Below, one piece after another: positions 38,283 to 45,842 of a DNA stretch of 64,000 nt. The first letter of the stretch is position 1; every line of letters starts with the position of its first letter. The position numbers and the translations under genes were made by a program. The DNA is taken from the NCBI GenBank assembly GCA_025058345.1, contig JANXEN010000003.1:62001-126000 (forward strand), read 5' to 3'. Below the pieces are notes generated by a model, which did no database searches, had not been told where the DNA came from, and worked only from the letters and a program-made list of their open reading frames with translations. This stretch comes from Sulfolobales archaeon (GTDB lineage Archaea > Thermoproteota > Thermoprotei_A > Sulfolobales > NBVN01).

Positions 38283-38314
38283 TTGCTGTTTTGGAATTAG
38301 GCTTTGGAAAAGTG

Positions 38315-40366
38315 ATGACTAATGACCTACTAATTATAGAATTGATGGCTCCTACGATCGCGGCATTAGTGTTGTTAATTTTTAAAAATAAATCTATCTC
38401 GGCATTTATTTCTCTAATATCCGTATGTCTATCTTTTGCAGCATCGTTAATTCTGCTGTTAAATGTTATTGATGGGGGAATTATATCTATTGATTTGGTT
38501 AATGAGTGGATAGTGCTTCCTGGCTTAAAGCCTATAGGAGTGACCTTCACTTTAGATTTTTTAAGTACTCTTGTGAGCCTCCTTGTCTGCGGGTTAGCTA
38601 CTCTTATTCTCACTTACTCAATTAGTTACGTAAATGCGGATAGCGATTATCATGATACCCGGAGATATTGGTTCCTAATTCTTATTTTCATAGCAAGCAT
38701 GCTAGTGGTGATTAACTCCGATAATTTCATTCTAATGTTCGTTGGCTGGGAGGGGATGAGTTTAAGCAGTTATTTACTTATAGGCTATTACTACGGTGAT
38801 GAAAGCAAGTATTGGATTGGAGGCCCGTTAAATAAGGCTCCGATGTATAAACCAAGTCAATGCTCCTACATTACTTTCCTAATCGTTGGCTCTGCAGATA
38901 CGTTCATGCTGCTTGGTATTGTCATGCTTATGGTACTTACAGGTTCTCCTTATTATGAGGATCTATACGTTATTAAGGAACTATTGATTGAAGGCATTCC
39001 TGACTGGGCAGTTGTTCTATCTTTTATCTTGTTTCTGTTAGGGCCTATCGCTAAATCGGCGCAATTCCCCCTACATTTGTGGCTGCCTTATGCGATGGCT
39101 GGACCTACTCCAGTATCAGCGCTTTTACACTCAGCTACTATGGTTAAGGCAGGCGTTTACATAATTTTGAGACTACTTCCTTATTTGATAGAGATATCTC
39201 ACGTGAGCAGCGTATTTACCTTAATATTCTACCTATTGGTGGTTTCTGGAAGCGTCTCAATGGTAATTGCTGCGGTAAATGCTGGAAGGTCTATTGAACT
39301 TAAGAGGGTGTTAGCCTACTCGACGATTAGTCAAATAGGTTATATGTTTATCCTTTTAGGTGTGGCTGGGTTTGCGGAGATACCTTTAGTGGCAGGTGCT
39401 GCAACCCTATATCACTTAATTAATCATGCGTTGTTTAAGTCAGCACTTTTCTTAACGGCTGGGATCTTAATCCATACTACAGGTACGAAATATTTAAATG
39501 AGATGGGACTACACATAAAGGAATTTAAGTCAGTATTCATCGTCACATTAATCTCAAGTCTCAGCTTAATTGGTGTTCCACCTCTAATGGGATTTTGGAG
39601 TAAGGAATTCATAATAGAAACGGTTATTGGCGCTGGTCATTACATCCTCTTTTTAATTACGTTATTATGTTCCTTTTTAACAGCCTTTTACGCAACTCGT
39701 ATGCTTGTAATAGTGTTCGGGGGGCAGAGCGACGCGCATTACGGACATCATAATGTTGATAGACTTATGTACTACCCGCCGTTGATTTTAACATCAGCTA
39801 CATTCATTGCTGGAATTGTAGGTCTAGATATTAAAGGTAATTTATTGAGGATGATAACGTTGATTGAGGAGTTAGAACACAAGCATTTAGAACCTTCATT
39901 TATAGTAGCATCTCTTGCCGTGATCTTCGCAGGCGTGTTACTAGCGGTTTACGTTAACGTTTCATACATACCTTACTCATCGATGTTCGATAGGTCCTTT
40001 GTAAAGCTTAGAAAAATCTATAGCTTAAGAAAGTTATTAATAATTCTCAAGGAGTACAAGAACAGATTCAATTACCGTAAGATGTTCAATTACTTTATCG
40101 TATTATCAAGGTGTGTTAACTGGTTAGTTCATCGTGAAAGGCACTACCTGAATTTCGGGTTAGTTACTGTAGTTATTAGAAACTTCTTCACTACCGCAAA
40201 CTACCTACTTGACTTGACCGTCATGGTTATTGGGAGAAATTCTTTCAAGTATTTAAAGAAACTATTTAAGGCTGTGGGTTATGCTGATATGGATACATTT
40301 CTATCCGTATATGTGGTTACGTTATCAATTCTTTTAACGGGGATGTTAATATTACTTTTTAGGTGA
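38315..40366 (+). CDS. NuoL-like proton/ion-translocating subunit
   Basis: Antiporter-like membrane subunit of the complex I/Mrp family, about 683 residues. Strong marks are DNFILMFVGWEGMSLSSYLL, then AQFPLHLWLPYAMAGPTPVSALLHSATMVKAGVYI split over helices 7-8, with the conserved Lys and HSAT, and LINHALFKSALFLTAG. About fourteen helices are followed by a long hydrophilic stretch (about 560-660) and a last helix. The frame could start at TTG 38291, but promoter spacing favours 38315. Next comes a NuoM-like gene after 3 nt; no other complex I genes are present. Confidence 0.9.
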   Translation: MTNDLLIIELMAPTIAALVLLIFKNKSISAFISLISVCLSFAASLILLLNVIDGGIISIDLVNEWIVLPGLKPIGVTFTLDFLSTLVSLLVCGLATLILTYSISYVNADSDYHDTRRYWFLILIFIASMLVVINSDNFILMFVGWEGMSLSSYLLIGYYYGDESKYWIGGPLNKAPMYKPSQCSYITFLIVGSADTFMLLGIVMLMVLTGSPYYEDLYVIKELLIEGIPDWAVVLSFILFLLGPIAKSAQFPLHLWLPYAMAGPTPVSALLHSATMVKAGVYIILRLLPYLIEISHVSSVFTLIFYLLVVSGSVSMVIAAVNAGRSIELKRVLAYSTISQIGYMFILLGVAGFAEIPLVAGAATLYHLINHALFKSALFLTAGILIHTTGTKYLNEMGLHIKEFKSVFIVTLISSLSLIGVPPLMGFWSKEFIIETVIGAGHYILFLITLLCSFLTAFYATRMLVIVFGGQSDAHYGHHNVDRLMYYPPLILTSATFIAGIVGLDIKGNLLRMITLIEELEHKHLEPSFIVASLAVIFAGVLLAVYVNVSYIPYSSMFDRSFVKLRKIYSLRKLLIILKEYKNRFNYRKMFNYFIVLSRCVNWLVHRERHYLNFGLVTVVIRNFFTTANYLLDLTVMVIGRNSFKYLKKLFKAVGYADMDTFLSVYVVTLSILLTGMLILLFR

Positions 40367-40369
40367 TTA

Positions 40370-41818
40370 ATGGTGGTCTTAGAGTTAGTAGTAATACCTA
40401 TGGTTGCTGCTGTAGTAGTATTTAGCGTACGTAATGATAGGGTAGCATCTATATTGAGTACAGCTACTGTAGGCTTTTTATCGATTTACCTGGTTTTAAT
40501 TTCATTATTTAAGGAGTTACCAATGGTTGAAAACTATATCGAAGTCGTTGTACATGGGCATTTTGAGTACTCCTTCTCCTTAGGGGTTGACGGCTTCAAT
40601 ATCGTGGTTTTAATAACTGCTTTGACGCTTCTTCCATCAATTTACCTTTATTCTTATGACTACATGAAGCATAGAATTAAGGATCTGGAGGGCGTCACGT
40701 TAAATCTATTCTACGGTTTACTACTGTTAAACACCTCCGGTATTGTGGGAGTACTCATTTCATACAATATGATCGCATTCATAATATTCTATGAGTTGAT
40801 AGTTCTAACTTCTTGGGGTTTGATATATTTCTACGGTTACGGTAATCGGGTTATGGTATCCTTCACCTACTTAGTGTGGTCCTTAATAGCATCGTTGATC
40901 ATAGTTATAGGCCTCTCAACAATCTATGTATATGCAGGTACCTTCCAATTCAACCCTTCATCATTAGCAGGTATACCTCCGTGGGTGTATTACATACTCT
41001 TAATAGGTTTCGCTATAAAGATGGGGCTTTTTGGAGTTCATATGTGGTTACCATTAGCTCATGCGGAAGCCCCCACTCCTTTTAGCGCTGTGCTCAGTCC
41101 ACTGATTGTCGGTATAGGAGGTTACGGATTTCTAAGGGTTGTAGGACCTTTCGTAGATTTATACGAACTCACATTAGTTCTCCTAGTTTGGGGGATTGCA
41201 TCAATAATTTATGGAGGGTTAGGCGCGTTACTTGAAGATGATATTAAGAGGATACTGGCTTATTCAAGTATAAGCCATATGGGGTATTTAGTGCTTGCAC
41301 TATCTGTCCACGACCCTCTACTCAGCACTATGTCGTTTTCTTATCACTATCTCTCTCACGCATATGCGAAGGCTTTACTATTCCTTTCCTCAGGAGTCCT
41401 TATATACGCGTTAGATATCAGGAATATCAACATGGTTGGTGGGATACTCAGAAAGTATAAGTTATGTGGATTAGGGTTTATGGTGGGGTTCCTCAGCCTT
41501 GCTGGTTTACCACCTTTTGCTGGATTTATATCGAAGCTATTAATAATTTCGTCAGTAATTAGGACAGCTTCTGAGGCTTCTTTAGAGCTTTACGCCCTCT
41601 CCTTAGCGGCGTTAGTGTCGATGGTGTTTACGATAGCTTACGGTTTAAGAGTCATTAAAAATGTGGTATTCGGTGCTTTAAGGCCTAGTAATGTAGAATT
41701 CGTTAGTTTACCAATAACTATGCATATAAGTCTAATTATAATAATTATACTTCTAGTAATTACTTGGTTCATACCTCATTTATTGTTAAACCTTATGTTG
41801 GGGGCATTCAAACTGTGA
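40370..41818 (+). CDS. NuoM-like proton/ion-translocating subunit
   Basis: Second antiporter-like subunit, 482 residues with about fourteen helices. It shows FYELIVLTSWGLIYFYGY (the conserved Glu of helix 5), GFAIKMGLFGVHMWLPLAHAEAPTPFSAV in helices 7-8, and SYSSISHMGYLVL-type segment then HAYAKALLFLSSG. ATG at 40370 lies 3 nt after the NuoL-like stop. The pair alone could act as an ion pump module with an unknown redox partner or be parts of a scattered complex. Confidence 0.9.
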   Translation: MVVLELVVIPMVAAVVVFSVRNDRVASILSTATVGFLSIYLVLISLFKELPMVENYIEVVVHGHFEYSFSLGVDGFNIVVLITALTLLPSIYLYSYDYMKHRIKDLEGVTLNLFYGLLLLNTSGIVGVLISYNMIAFIIFYELIVLTSWGLIYFYGYGNRVMVSFTYLVWSLIASLIIVIGLSTIYVYAGTFQFNPSSLAGIPPWVYYILLIGFAIKMGLFGVHMWLPLAHAEAPTPFSAVLSPLIVGIGGYGFLRVVGPFVDLYELTLVLLVWGIASIIYGGLGALLEDDIKRILAYSSISHMGYLVLALSVHDPLLSTMSFSYHYLSHAYAKALLFLSSGVLIYALDIRNINMVGGILRKYKLCGLGFMVGFLSLAGLPPFAGFISKLLIISSVIRTASEASLELYALSLAALVSMVFTIAYGLRVIKNVVFGALRPSNVEFVSLPITMHISLIIIIILLVITWFIPHLLLNLMLGAFKL

Positions 41819-41906: not shown

Positions 41907-42716
41907 ATGTTGATCCCTACGTATGTGAAAGCTTTGAGTGTTGCGGTATACTTACTGATGACCATCAATTTAGCTAACGTTATGGTTGTTCAGAAAGATC
42001 TAGTTCTGTCCGGGCTTAATGATGGTGTAGTCATAGATTATCGGGGTAAGGATCAGATTTACGTTTTGACATCTGATTTATCTGATGCATTCATTTCTGA
42101 TGTAATTAACACTTCAGGTGGTGGAGTTTTTTCTGGACGCATATACATGAGGTTAAGTAAGCAGGCATTTAATTTAAGTGATGCTTATTTCATGGTGGTC
42201 CTATATTCACCTAGTCCCTACGTAATTAACGTATCTAGAGTGAGCTCCGAAAAGGTGTTGACGGATATTCTTAACAGTCCTGGGAATGTAAGCCTGCAAC
42301 TAACTTTCCGACTGATAAATAACTTAACAGGCAGTTACGTAACACCAACTATTCAAATCCCTATGTATTTAAGGGCGCCTATATGGAATGTAGCTATAGT
42401 TTTAGTAGTTTTAACTATGTTCATATCTACTGCGGTACTTGATGTGAGGAGTTACTCTCAGTTGAAGAAGGATAGATGGGGTGTTGAGGAATCAGTTGCG
42501 TTGTTAGTTAGGTATCTGCTCTATGGGTCCTTAACGGCGTTTATTGTAAGTGTCGTAGCTACTGTTGGATTAACTATATACAATAACATAGTTTTTAAGA
42601 ACTTCAGCTTCGATATATCTTGGCTGTTAATACCTTTCATTATACTATTCTTAAGCGCTGTTGTTTATTACGCTTGTAAGTGGAAGGGGTGGTATGATGT
42701 CATCGATGAAGAATGA
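41907..42716 (+). CDS. Membrane protein with glycosylation-rich ectodomain, unknown function
   Basis: A 269-residue protein not matching a family I know. A first hydrophobic segment (about 7-25) leads to an ectodomain of about 130 residues with at least five N-glycosylation sequons (NTS, NLS, NVS twice, NLT). Three transmembrane helices (about 162-183, 203-226, 237-258) and a short charged tail follow. The gene overlaps the AAA-Lon gene by 23 nt, implying coupled translation. The predicted topology puts the beta-rich domain outside the cell and the tail inside. A membrane anchor or sensor for the downstream protease is an inference from the overlap. Confidence 0.75.
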   Translation: MLIPTYVKALSVAVYLLMTINLANVMVVQKDLVLSGLNDGVVIDYRGKDQIYVLTSDLSDAFISDVINTSGGGVFSGRIYMRLSKQAFNLSDAYFMVVLYSPSPYVINVSRVSSEKVLTDILNSPGNVSLQLTFRLINNLTGSYVTPTIQIPMYLRAPIWNVAIVLVVLTMFISTAVLDVRSYSQLKKDRWGVEESVALLVRYLLYGSLTAFIVSVVATVGLTIYNNIVFKNFSFDISWLLIPFIILFLSAVVYYACKWKGWYDVIDEE

Positions 42717-45432
42717 TGAAAACGTCTATTGGTGGTTAAGGAATTCAGCGTTGAGGAGAGTTCTCTATCTCCCATTATATCTAGTGAATAGGGATTTCAG
42801 GAAGTGGAAGAACGCTAAGTTGACGCCGGCGAAGGTTAAGAAGAAGTTAAGGGAGGTTGATAAGCTGTTCCCTAAGAGGAGGGAAGACCTAGTTGGTAGA
42901 GATAAGGAATTTGAGATGATTATGTCGGCAATTGCTTACCATGTCATTAAGGACGAGACTATTATTGACTTACTTAAGGGGATGCAACCTCCGAAATTCT
43001 TTCTACTTAAAGGTAATACAGGCACCGGTAAATCTCTGCTAGCTGAGGTCTGTTTAAGGGAGGCAGTAATATATGGCTTAAAACGCGGAGTTAACGTGCA
43101 GCCTATGGTGATTCAATGCGATGAGATCTTCCACCCACTCTACGGACAGTCGTTAAGGAATTTAACAGCCATATTTAGAAGGGCTGAGGAAACACCTACT
43201 GTAATCTTCTTAGATGAGTTCCACTCCATCGGTATGAAAGTTGAGAAGCCTATGTACGGCGCGGAGCGTGAGGACGTTAAGGTTCAGGATCTCTTCATTG
43301 AACATATAAATAAGATAGTTGACGGTAATAAAAGAGTGTTGATAATAGCTGCTACTAATAAGTTCGAAACTATAAGGGAAGACATAAGGAGGAGGGCGTA
43401 TGTAATAGATTTAGACCAAAACATTACTTGGGAGATGTTGATGGCAGTTCTCGACTCACAGTTAAAGAGGTTTGGTTGGACTCATTTAAGGACTGAGGAG
43501 GTTATGAAAGTTCTTGAGAAGTCAGTAAGTGCTTATAGGCAAACTCAGCTTACCCCCTTCGATATAATTGATGCATGCACTAAGGTCTATCTGAAGAAGG
43601 TTGAACCGCTTAGAAGTAAAATACTAGGCAAGTTCTTCGGTTCAACTAAGATTGAGGAAGTTATCAAAAATAACGTGACCTTAGAAGATTTTAAATTAGT
43701 TTCTAGGGAGTTGAGGGGTTATGTAGAGCAGGAGAAGAGTGTGGAGGTTTTAGGAACTATACTTCAGATAAAGCCTGCAGTGAATTACTCGGACATAGGT
43801 GGATTATTCAGCATTAAGGATAAGTTGTTTAAGTTAGTTATGCTTAGTTTAAGGCCGGAGCTCTCAGGTAGGCTTGGCTGGGTCCCACCTAAAGGTATTT
43901 TACTTTACGGTGAGCCTGGCTGTGGTAAGACCTACCTGACTAAAGCAATCGCTAAGGAGGCGAATGCTACTTTCTTCTACGTCCCTGCTTCACAACTATT
44001 GATTAATGCTAAGTGGGTTGGTGAGCCTGAAAAGAATATTAAGGACTTATTCTCATTAGCTAGAAGGCATTCACCAAGCATAGTGTTCTTCGACGAGTTT
44101 GACGTTATAGCCACAAAGAGAAGAGGTGACCCAGTTGGTGATAGGTTAACTGCTCAAATACTTACTGAGTTAGACGGTCTTCAACCGCTGGAAGGTATTT
44201 TAATCATCGCAGCAACTAATAGGATTGAGGCAATTGATGAAGCTGTAATTAATAGGTTCGAACCTTACGTAGTTGAGATACCTCTACCTAGGAACGACGC
44301 AGAGCGATTAGACATTATCAGGGTTCATCTTCGGCAATACGTCCACCATATCGACCCCGAGGTAACTCCTGAAAGGGTTTTAAGCATATTGAAGAGATTC
44401 AGAACTGTTTCGCCTAGGGTTATAGCTGAGGTCATTAGAGAAGCAAATAGGTTAAGGGCTCAAGAAGTTACAGCTATAAATGACTTAAAGAGCGCTTTAA
44501 ATACTACAAGATATGATGAGTTAATTAAGTTCTACTCTGATGAGTTAAGCAGAGCTAAGGAGGTTTTAAACGCTTCAAGCGTAGATGAAGTCATTAAAGT
44601 TAGAATCGAAGATTATAAGCTTAAGTTATATCACTTCGAAAAAGCTGCTGAATCTCTCGAGCAAGACATAGATAGGGAATTGATAGATGTGCAGGAAAGT
44701 CTAATTGCTGTTGAGCTTCGTCCAGGGGTTACGATCGGGTTAGGGACCGACACCCAGGGTAGGAGGGGTATCCCACTAATTGTTGAGTGTTCGGTCAACC
44801 CCTACGGTAGCGGTAAGGTAAGCATCACTGGGGTTGCTAAATCAGTTATAATGGGTCCCGGAATCTCTGTTGAAGACCTTAGCGTAGTGGAAAGCGCATC
44901 CAATGTGGTTGACTACATAAAGAATTACGTAATGATGAAGATAGGTCTCGACTTAAGGAACTTCGACTTCAGATATCAAGTTATAAGCCCTATGGAGGGC
45001 GTTCCAGGCGCTGGTGTTAGTGGACCGAGTCTAGGATTAGCATTAAGCGTTGCAACCATATCAGAACTTGCTAAAATTCCTGCCAGTCCAGACATAGTTA
45101 TGACCGGTAAATGCGATATTAAGGGTGGTGTAGGCCCAGTCGGTGGCTTAGACTGGCGCGGATCGGGTAAGATACTAGCAGCTATAAGAACTAAGAAAGT
45201 TAAGATAAGGAAGTTCTTAATGCCTAAATGGAACTATGTAAGGTCTCCAGACGAGATTAAAGTATTGGAGGAAAACGATATAAGGGCAATACCTGTTGAA
45301 AGGCAGGTAGATGCTTGGATTATATCGTTAAACCTCAGCAATGAGGAAGAATTAATACTCAAATTAGCGAGTAATTTGAAGGAGTTATTAAATTCATCAA
45401 GCTTTAGAAATAACTATTTTGATGGTAGATAG
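42694..45432 (+). CDS. Double AAA+ ATPase fused to a Lon-type protease domain
   Basis: A 912-residue predicted ATP-dependent protease. AAA1 has Walker A GNTGTGKS (about 107-114) and Walker B VIFLDEFHS (about 170-178). AAA2 is CDC48-like, with Walker A GEPGCGKT (about 406-413), Walker B IVFFDEFD (about 463-470) and AATNR. A helical linker of about 110 residues leads to an S16 Lon domain with SGPSLG (Ser779) and GSGKILAA (Lys826). The Ser-Lys spacing is 47, against 43 in E. coli Lon, explained by a four-residue insert after GGL. The ATG at 42694 follows GGAAGGGGTGGT. No transmembrane helix is seen. The combination does not match standard LonA or LonB architecture. Confidence 0.88.
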   Translation: MMSSMKNDENVYWWLRNSALRRVLYLPLYLVNRDFRKWKNAKLTPAKVKKKLREVDKLFPKRREDLVGRDKEFEMIMSAIAYHVIKDETIIDLLKGMQPPKFFLLKGNTGTGKSLLAEVCLREAVIYGLKRGVNVQPMVIQCDEIFHPLYGQSLRNLTAIFRRAEETPTVIFLDEFHSIGMKVEKPMYGAEREDVKVQDLFIEHINKIVDGNKRVLIIAATNKFETIREDIRRRAYVIDLDQNITWEMLMAVLDSQLKRFGWTHLRTEEVMKVLEKSVSAYRQTQLTPFDIIDACTKVYLKKVEPLRSKILGKFFGSTKIEEVIKNNVTLEDFKLVSRELRGYVEQEKSVEVLGTILQIKPAVNYSDIGGLFSIKDKLFKLVMLSLRPELSGRLGWVPPKGILLYGEPGCGKTYLTKAIAKEANATFFYVPASQLLINAKWVGEPEKNIKDLFSLARRHSPSIVFFDEFDVIATKRRGDPVGDRLTAQILTELDGLQPLEGILIIAATNRIEAIDEAVINRFEPYVVEIPLPRNDAERLDIIRVHLRQYVHHIDPEVTPERVLSILKRFRTVSPRVIAEVIREANRLRAQEVTAINDLKSALNTTRYDELIKFYSDELSRAKEVLNASSVDEVIKVRIEDYKLKLYHFEKAAESLEQDIDRELIDVQESLIAVELRPGVTIGLGTDTQGRRGIPLIVECSVNPYGSGKVSITGVAKSVIMGPGISVEDLSVVESASNVVDYIKNYVMMKIGLDLRNFDFRYQVISPMEGVPGAGVSGPSLGLALSVATISELAKIPASPDIVMTGKCDIKGGVGPVGGLDWRGSGKILAAIRTKKVKIRKFLMPKWNYVRSPDEIKVLEENDIRAIPVERQVDAWIISLNLSNEEELILKLASNLKELLNSSSFRNNYFDGR

Positions 45433-45684
45433 TCTCCTTCTAACACCTTCTGCTTCAAGATAAATAGATCCTAAATTAATAGACCGAAGATTAATGGCCT
45501 GACTTAATTGCTTCGAAGACACAGCAACCAATACTGCCTTCGATACATTACTGCCACGAGCCTTAATAACCGCCTCCCTGCAATTGAACATGTTTAACTT
45601 CATTAGGACAGCCAAAACATACCTCATAAAGAATTTCCTACCTACATATACCACGTTATCCATGCAGAGACTGTCATCACTCAT
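45397..45684 (-). CDS. Alba-family chromatin/RNA-binding protein
   Basis: Divergent Alba paralogue of about 95 residues. Alignment to Sulfolobus Alba is clear in NVVYVGRKFFMRYVLAVLM, EAVIKARGSNVSKAV and the final LSTIKIVISK. The DNA-contacting basic pair is RK instead of KK, and the RNRFLPD segment that mediates dimer-dimer contacts is replaced by a different stretch. The ATG at 45684 is chosen because a TTTATT box lies about 25 nt upstream; the frame extends to 45717. Its 3' end overlaps the AAA-Lon gene tail-to-tail by 36 nt. Confidence 0.85.
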   Translation of the reverse strand: MSDDSLCMDNVVYVGRKFFMRYVLAVLMKLNMFNCREAVIKARGSNVSKAVLVAVSSKQLSQAINLRSINLGSIYLEAEGVRRRLSTIKIVISKA

Positions 45685-45842
45685 TAGAATATACCAAATA
45701 AATGGGTCCTGATGCAATAATAAATTTTATTTATGCTGTATTTACGGTTAAGTAACGAAATTTAACAGCAATTATTAAATTAATTCGATGGTTTGTGATG
45801 CTAGCCTCGGCTAATTAGTGCAGAACATTATAAACGTTCGAC

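Follow-up and report, generated by a model that had tools for sequence, protein, structure and literature searches.

A family of archaeal Lon-type proteases with two AAA modules and an adjoining membrane-protein gene: a candidate membrane-tethered protease

FtsH, which joins one AAA module to a zinc M41 peptidase, and the m- and i-AAA proteases are membrane-tethered AAA enzymes that serve membrane protein quality control. Among the S16 Ser-Lys proteases, LonA carries a LON N-terminal region, one AAA module and an active site of the form PKDGPSAG. The archaeal LonB (MEROPS S16.005), an AAA-driven protease held at the membrane, has a single AAA module, distinct in type and interrupted by a TM insert, together with the motif VEGDSAS and a Ser-Lys spacing of 42 (PMC9569914); the same source gives exactly 42 residues between Ser and Lys for LonA and LonB, and describes two other atypical subfamilies, LonC, in which ATPase activity is lost and one AAA module kept, and LonBA, with one AAA module and no LonB-type anchor. 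An older survey that included five crenarchaeal genomes detected no Lon in them (PMC2605481). Searches of the open-access literature turned up no account of an S16 protease with tandem AAA modules, and the available parts of PMC2605481, PMC9263693, PMC5070193 and PMC9569914 do not mention one.

The locus described here lies in a 64,000-nucleotide stretch of Sulfolobales DNA (the window) and comprises a membrane-protein gene followed by the gene of a large AAA protease (Table 1). The protease frame opens at ATG 42694, with the next in-frame ATG at 42697; TTG 42661, 11 codons upstream, is also possible as a start. Pfam places PF00004 (AAA) twice in the product (E 1.4e-55 for the whole protein, 1.2e-19 for the D1 half alone) and PF05362 (Lon_C) at aa 676-868 (E 4.8e-11; 43.1 bits vs a gathering cut-off of 21.1), in agreement with an earlier note on this DNA, which had read from the letters two complete P-loop modules followed by an S16 domain. 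In NCBIfam the protein stayed under the cut-off for every family among the matches listed. Residues W13, W14, L20, L28 and W38 of the N-terminal segment are near-invariant across the family, and the helical linker is the least conserved region of the protease, its YKxxxxHF motif excepted. An AlphaFold2 model of the large subunit (six sequences) reached a pLDDT of 52 and was discarded.

Table 1. Features of the two genes and their positions in the window.
Feature	Position	Strand	Basis
Membrane partner subunit (269 aa); its gene shares 23 nt with the protease gene	41907..42716	+	Adjacency in carriers
Partner beta-sandwich, predicted extracytoplasmic, aa 25-137	41979..42317	+	AF2, mean pLDDT 75
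Partner three TM helices, aa 159-186, 193-230, 237-260	42381..42686	+	AF2, Asgard fusion
Purine-rich Shine-Dalgarno-like stretch GGAAGGGGTGG, within the partner gene, ahead of the protease start	42682..42692	+	Sequence
Partner conserved acidic tail, predicted cytosolic, ending KGWYDVIDEE	42687..42713	+	Alignment, Asgard fusion
AAA-AAA-Lon protease subunit, 912 aa	42694..45432	+	ORF, Pfam, family alignment
N-terminal WW motif and basic amphipathic segment, aa 13-40	42730..42813	+	Family alignment
First AAA module (D1), aa 63-345	42880..43728	+	Pfam, alignment, AAA tree
Second AAA module (D2), aa 346-600	43729..44493	+	Pfam, alignment, AAA tree
Helical linker between D2 and S16, aa 601-675	44494..44718	+	Alignment
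S16 Lon proteolytic domain, aa 676-890	44719..45363	+	PF05362, profile match to solved Lons, own clade
Catalytic Ser779 in VSGPSLG, invariant	45028..45030	+	Alignment, profile match to solved Lons
Family-hallmark loop DWRGSG (GGxxxRGxGK)	45151..45168	+	Alignment, Ser-Lys spacing measurement
Catalytic Lys826, invariant	45169..45171	+	Alignment, profile match to solved Lons

Both motor modules carry intact ATPase motifs: D1 has Walker A GNTGTGKS (107-114), Walker B VIFLDE, a pore-loop tyrosine in PLYGQS and RRR at the arginine-finger position, and D2 has Walker A GEPGCGKT (406-413), Walker B IVFFDE, the pore loop KWVGEPEK and Arg521. In a quick tree of AAA modules, D2 grouped with classical CDC48-type AAA modules yet outside CDC48 D1 and D2, D1 formed a divergent branch of its own, and both fell outside the AAA modules of Lon. 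Neither is thus a CDC48 ring proper, which refines the CDC48-like second ring of the earlier note. From these placements, the protein is most readily viewed as a double motor of the CDC48 type that carries an S16 domain, and not as a Lon with an additional AAA module. The tandem arrangement, the clade of D2 and the KWVG pore loop are shared with CDC48/VAT, whereas the divergent D1, the C-terminal S16 domain and the lack of a CDC48 N-domain match set the protein apart, as does its TIGR01243 score of 215.7 bits vs a cut-off of 802.65.

Solved Lon proteases are matched by a profile built from the family's S16 domains: the 'Putative protease La homolog' chains 1z0c/1z0w come first (E 3e-22), followed by the 3k1j Lon (E 5e-21) and by further bacterial and mitochondrial Lons. 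In these alignments S779 and K826 fall on the catalytic Ser and Lys and match the solved LonB dyad, which confirms the pair picked out in the earlier note. The best-matching solved S16 domains are archaeal, and we take them, in line with PMC9569914, to be LonB. The spacing of the two residues is 46 in 18 of 19 family members measured and 48 in the remaining one (one clade), vs 42 in E. coli LonA and in each LonB with a readable motif, because of the GGxxxRGxGK loop; the four-residue insert after GGL that had been noted by eye is thus exact, and it is family-wide. The catalytic Ser follows a Pro, a feature shared with LonA, yet it sits in VSGPS and not in PKDGPSAG or VEGDSAS. In the S16 tree, where some joins lie on long branches, the S16 domains of the family form one clade (support 99/98) that stands apart from LonA, LonB and a LonB-like group of Thermoproteota.

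Compared with the described families, the double-AAA protein by its sequence is none of LonA, LonB, LonC or CDC48, and the earlier view that it fits neither LonA nor LonB is borne out. An S16 domain with a Ser-Lys dyad places it in the S16 peptidase clan (PF05362 is above cut-off in 40 of 40 carriers scanned), while its spacing lies outside the 42 residues of LonA and LonB. Resemblance to LonA ends with the S16 fold and the A-type centre: there is no LON domain, and TIGR00763 gives 54.4 vs 608.05 bits. From LonB, with which it would share an AAA-driven Ser-Lys protease held at the membrane (here predicted from genes), it differs in its two AAA modules, the anchor in a separate subunit, VSGPS and the spacing of 46 (TIGR00764, 53.5 vs 516.6 bits). 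Every member read has intact Walker A and B motifs in each of its two modules, unlike LonC with its degenerate ATPase motifs, and no M41 domain was found in the protease frame by Pfam.

Relatives were sought by profile searches with the S16 part of the window protein. Full-length homologues of about 900-935 aa, a few of them cut by contig ends, were found in 42 of 398 sampled Thermoproteota genomes, and 2 of 79 genomes from the Asgard phylum to which L036 belongs also carry the double-AAA Lon. At E <= 1e-30 there was none in 100 genomes from the phylum that includes L050 (Archaeoglobi) or in 97 from the one that includes L033 (Thermoplasmata), whose LonBs score near 1e-20 against the family S16 profile. 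The gene is common in several other Thermoproteota families, occurs in four genomes of one further family in the window's class, and is found in MAGs labelled Sulfolobales, Desulfurococcaceae, Desulfurococcales, Thermoprotei B19_G17 and Methanomethylicia. In the window's own order, by contrast, only 4 of 214 genomes have it, representing 3 genera within a single family, and none of the 118 high-quality genomes does; a fifth match there (6.9e-9) is a 615-aa frame of another kind. The proposal of the earlier note that this could be the housekeeping protease of the lineage fails, because most of the order is without the gene. In the S16 tree the window copies nest among those of other Thermoproteota families, and f71, a family of the same class, has the other type, which suggests horizontal transfer into the window's family.

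Beyond what the earlier note described, the double-AAA Lon is a family with a linked upstream membrane-protein gene. This partner lay directly upstream in 6 of 6 loci first compared; in L026 and L027 it overlaps the protease gene, is only about 28-30% identical, and is the only neighbour in common. A membrane-protein gene of the same anatomy stands directly upstream in families f16, f23, f27, f28, f30, f36, f40, f43, f59, f63 and f71, and in f18 it adjoins the protease divergently and is homologous to f23-type partners (E 1e-39 to 3e-51). Thus, such a gene adjoins the protease in all carriers with a readable flank; at L103, L106, L126 and L130 the contig or locus is cut or masked at this point. 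The partner matched no Pfam family. An AlphaFold2 model of the window's copy (pLDDT 75) shows a signal helix, a nine-strand beta-sandwich and three TM helices, and no Foldseek match to it was obtained at E <= 1e-3, so no fold family is claimed. Five N-glycosylation sequons fall within aa 22-158, and the TM1-TM2 loop is basic. Partner identity to the window copy is 26-62%. Partners of group A (window type) and of group B (f23/f18/f71 type) are alike in anatomy, but profile comparisons of groups A, B and C were weak (A-B, 31 columns, probability 8%; A-C, 226 columns, E 5e-4, probability 33%), which is why we do not claim that all partners are homologous. The partners of f28 are without the ectodomain and keep the TM helices and tail, so the tether appears to be the conserved core.

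The two proteins are one chain in two Asgard genomes, G579 (L203) and G589 (L204), in which the partner TM region and a YE[IM]IDE tail continue in frame into the protease at its WW segment. The L203 fusion is 1012 aa long and that of L204 is cut by a contig end; the partner profile matches the first 120 residues of both (E 4e-14 to 5e-14), and the protease part is 56% identical to the window protein. A KW[KR]GW tail was considered as a docking motif and set aside, since it partly encodes the Shine-Dalgarno-like sequence (GGAGG at that site in L023, L026 and L027) and overlaps the start codon; such coding may explain some of the tail conservation in operons (the KW[KR]G part), and only the IDE part was used as evidence. 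The IDE tail is kept in the Asgard fusion, where there is no start codon or ribosome site, which points to constraint on the protein. The fusion is the strongest evidence and points to both proteins working as one membrane-tethered enzyme.

Other candidates for proteolysis at the membrane were sought in the carriers. The FtsH peptidase domain (M41) was found in 0 of 24 carriers, while the control for this search was positive in 10 of 14 genomes. A TIGR00764 search returned LonB-like Lons in 28 of 398 Thermoproteota genomes, none of them carriers. Mutual exclusion with LonB was considered and rejected as too weak alone, with 0 genomes shared between sets of 28 and 42 in 398 and about 3 expected by chance. 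Besides the double-AAA family, PF05362 found mainly short S16 proteins and S16-plus-TM proteins in 40 carriers.

The motifs of the double-AAA Lon are consistent, as far as sequence can tell, with an ATP-dependent self-compartmentalised protease. Together, the two genes probably encode a membrane-tethered ATP-dependent serine protease of new architecture, taking the FtsH/LonB role where neither was found. The small subunit would place its beta-sandwich ectodomain outside the cell, cross the membrane with three helices and present an acidic tail to the cytosol, onto which the large subunit may dock through its N-terminal WW/basic segment. Six copies of the large subunit would assemble into a stack in which the D1 ring, the D2 ring and the S16 protease ring each make up one layer. 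The pore loops of the two motor rings would draw substrates in, and the Ser779-Lys826 dyad would cleave them; the likeliest substrates would be damaged or unassembled membrane proteins and cytosolic proteins near the membrane. We also lean, if less firmly, towards regarding the assembly as a third membrane-integrated AAA protease architecture, with two motor rings, one S16 ring, a separate anchor bearing a sensory ectodomain and a new spacing class, that would serve membrane quality control in archaea without FtsH and LonB.

A membrane partner, a D2 nearest to the classical CDC48-type AAA modules and a Ser-Lys loop lengthened beyond that of described Lons would also suit an Msp1/CDC48-like dislocase that extracts or remodels membrane proteins, its S16 domain only trimming or processing particular substrates. 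However, both Walker sets, VSGPS and the GGxxxRGxGK loop are common to all family members, and an alignment of 39 relatives shows at least 97% conservation at 167 of 912 positions, among them the WW pair (13-14), the Walker A and B motifs of each module, the pore tyrosine of D1, S779 and K826; this conservation, which takes in the ATPase as well as the protease motifs, is not due to chance. With these motifs all invariant while S16 identity to distant clades is 36-40%, proteolysis is probably central, and a dislocase is unlikely. A soluble housekeeping protease of the LonA/LonB quality-control kind with two AAA modules, the membrane gene being an unrelated operon mate, would agree with the intact dyad and with the absence of LonB from the carriers tested; we hold it to be slightly less likely, given the linkage of the partner in all clades, the in-frame Asgard fusion and the patchy occurrence in the window's order. 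Least probable is that the membrane protein is a dedicated substrate (a sensor or regulator) and not a structural subunit. Its fast evolution against a conserved protease (61-85% identity to the window copy among relatives) and the ectodomain loss in f28 would allow this, but a tether agrees better with the covalent link between TM part and protease in two Asgard genomes and with the f28 partners, which retain TM helices and tail alone.

As a membrane-tethered protease, the double-AAA Lon would unite a CDC48-type double motor with a Lon protease domain, and it breaks the fixed 42-residue Ser-Lys spacing; the putative anchor is a separate gene in Thermoproteota and part of one chain in Asgard archaea. 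For the removal of damaged membrane proteins in archaea without FtsH or LonB, it is a testable candidate for part of the answer, one that does not extend to the window's whole order, most genomes of which are without the gene.

Several other S16 proteins and neighbouring genes were also recorded. The LonB-like proteins of the 28 Thermoproteota genomes (L161-L172) are ~735-790 aa long, carry the A-type motif VDGPSAG with TAVGG replacing PVGG, all fall below the TIGR00764 cut-off and form an S16 clade of their own; they are possibly, by these features, another unnamed Lon subfamily. The window's own genome (C53) encodes a 662-aa protein with a signal peptide, an N-terminal S16 domain, a C-terminal TM helix and no AAA module (L002:1159-3147), and S16-TM proteins of this kind are present in many carriers as well as in other archaea. 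The partner gene is directly preceded by two consecutive genes for proton-antiporter-type (NuoL/NuoM-like) subunits (38291-41818, + strand), a pair conserved in the family's related genomes, and the 3′ end of the protease gene is overlapped by a small convergent Alba-domain gene (45397-45717, - strand; PF01918, E 2e-6) that is kept in related loci of the same family. Close to the Asgard fusion gene, reading by eye showed one peroxiredoxin-like and one superoxide-dismutase-like frame (L203:2-1197), and an oxidative-stress setting is possible for that gene.
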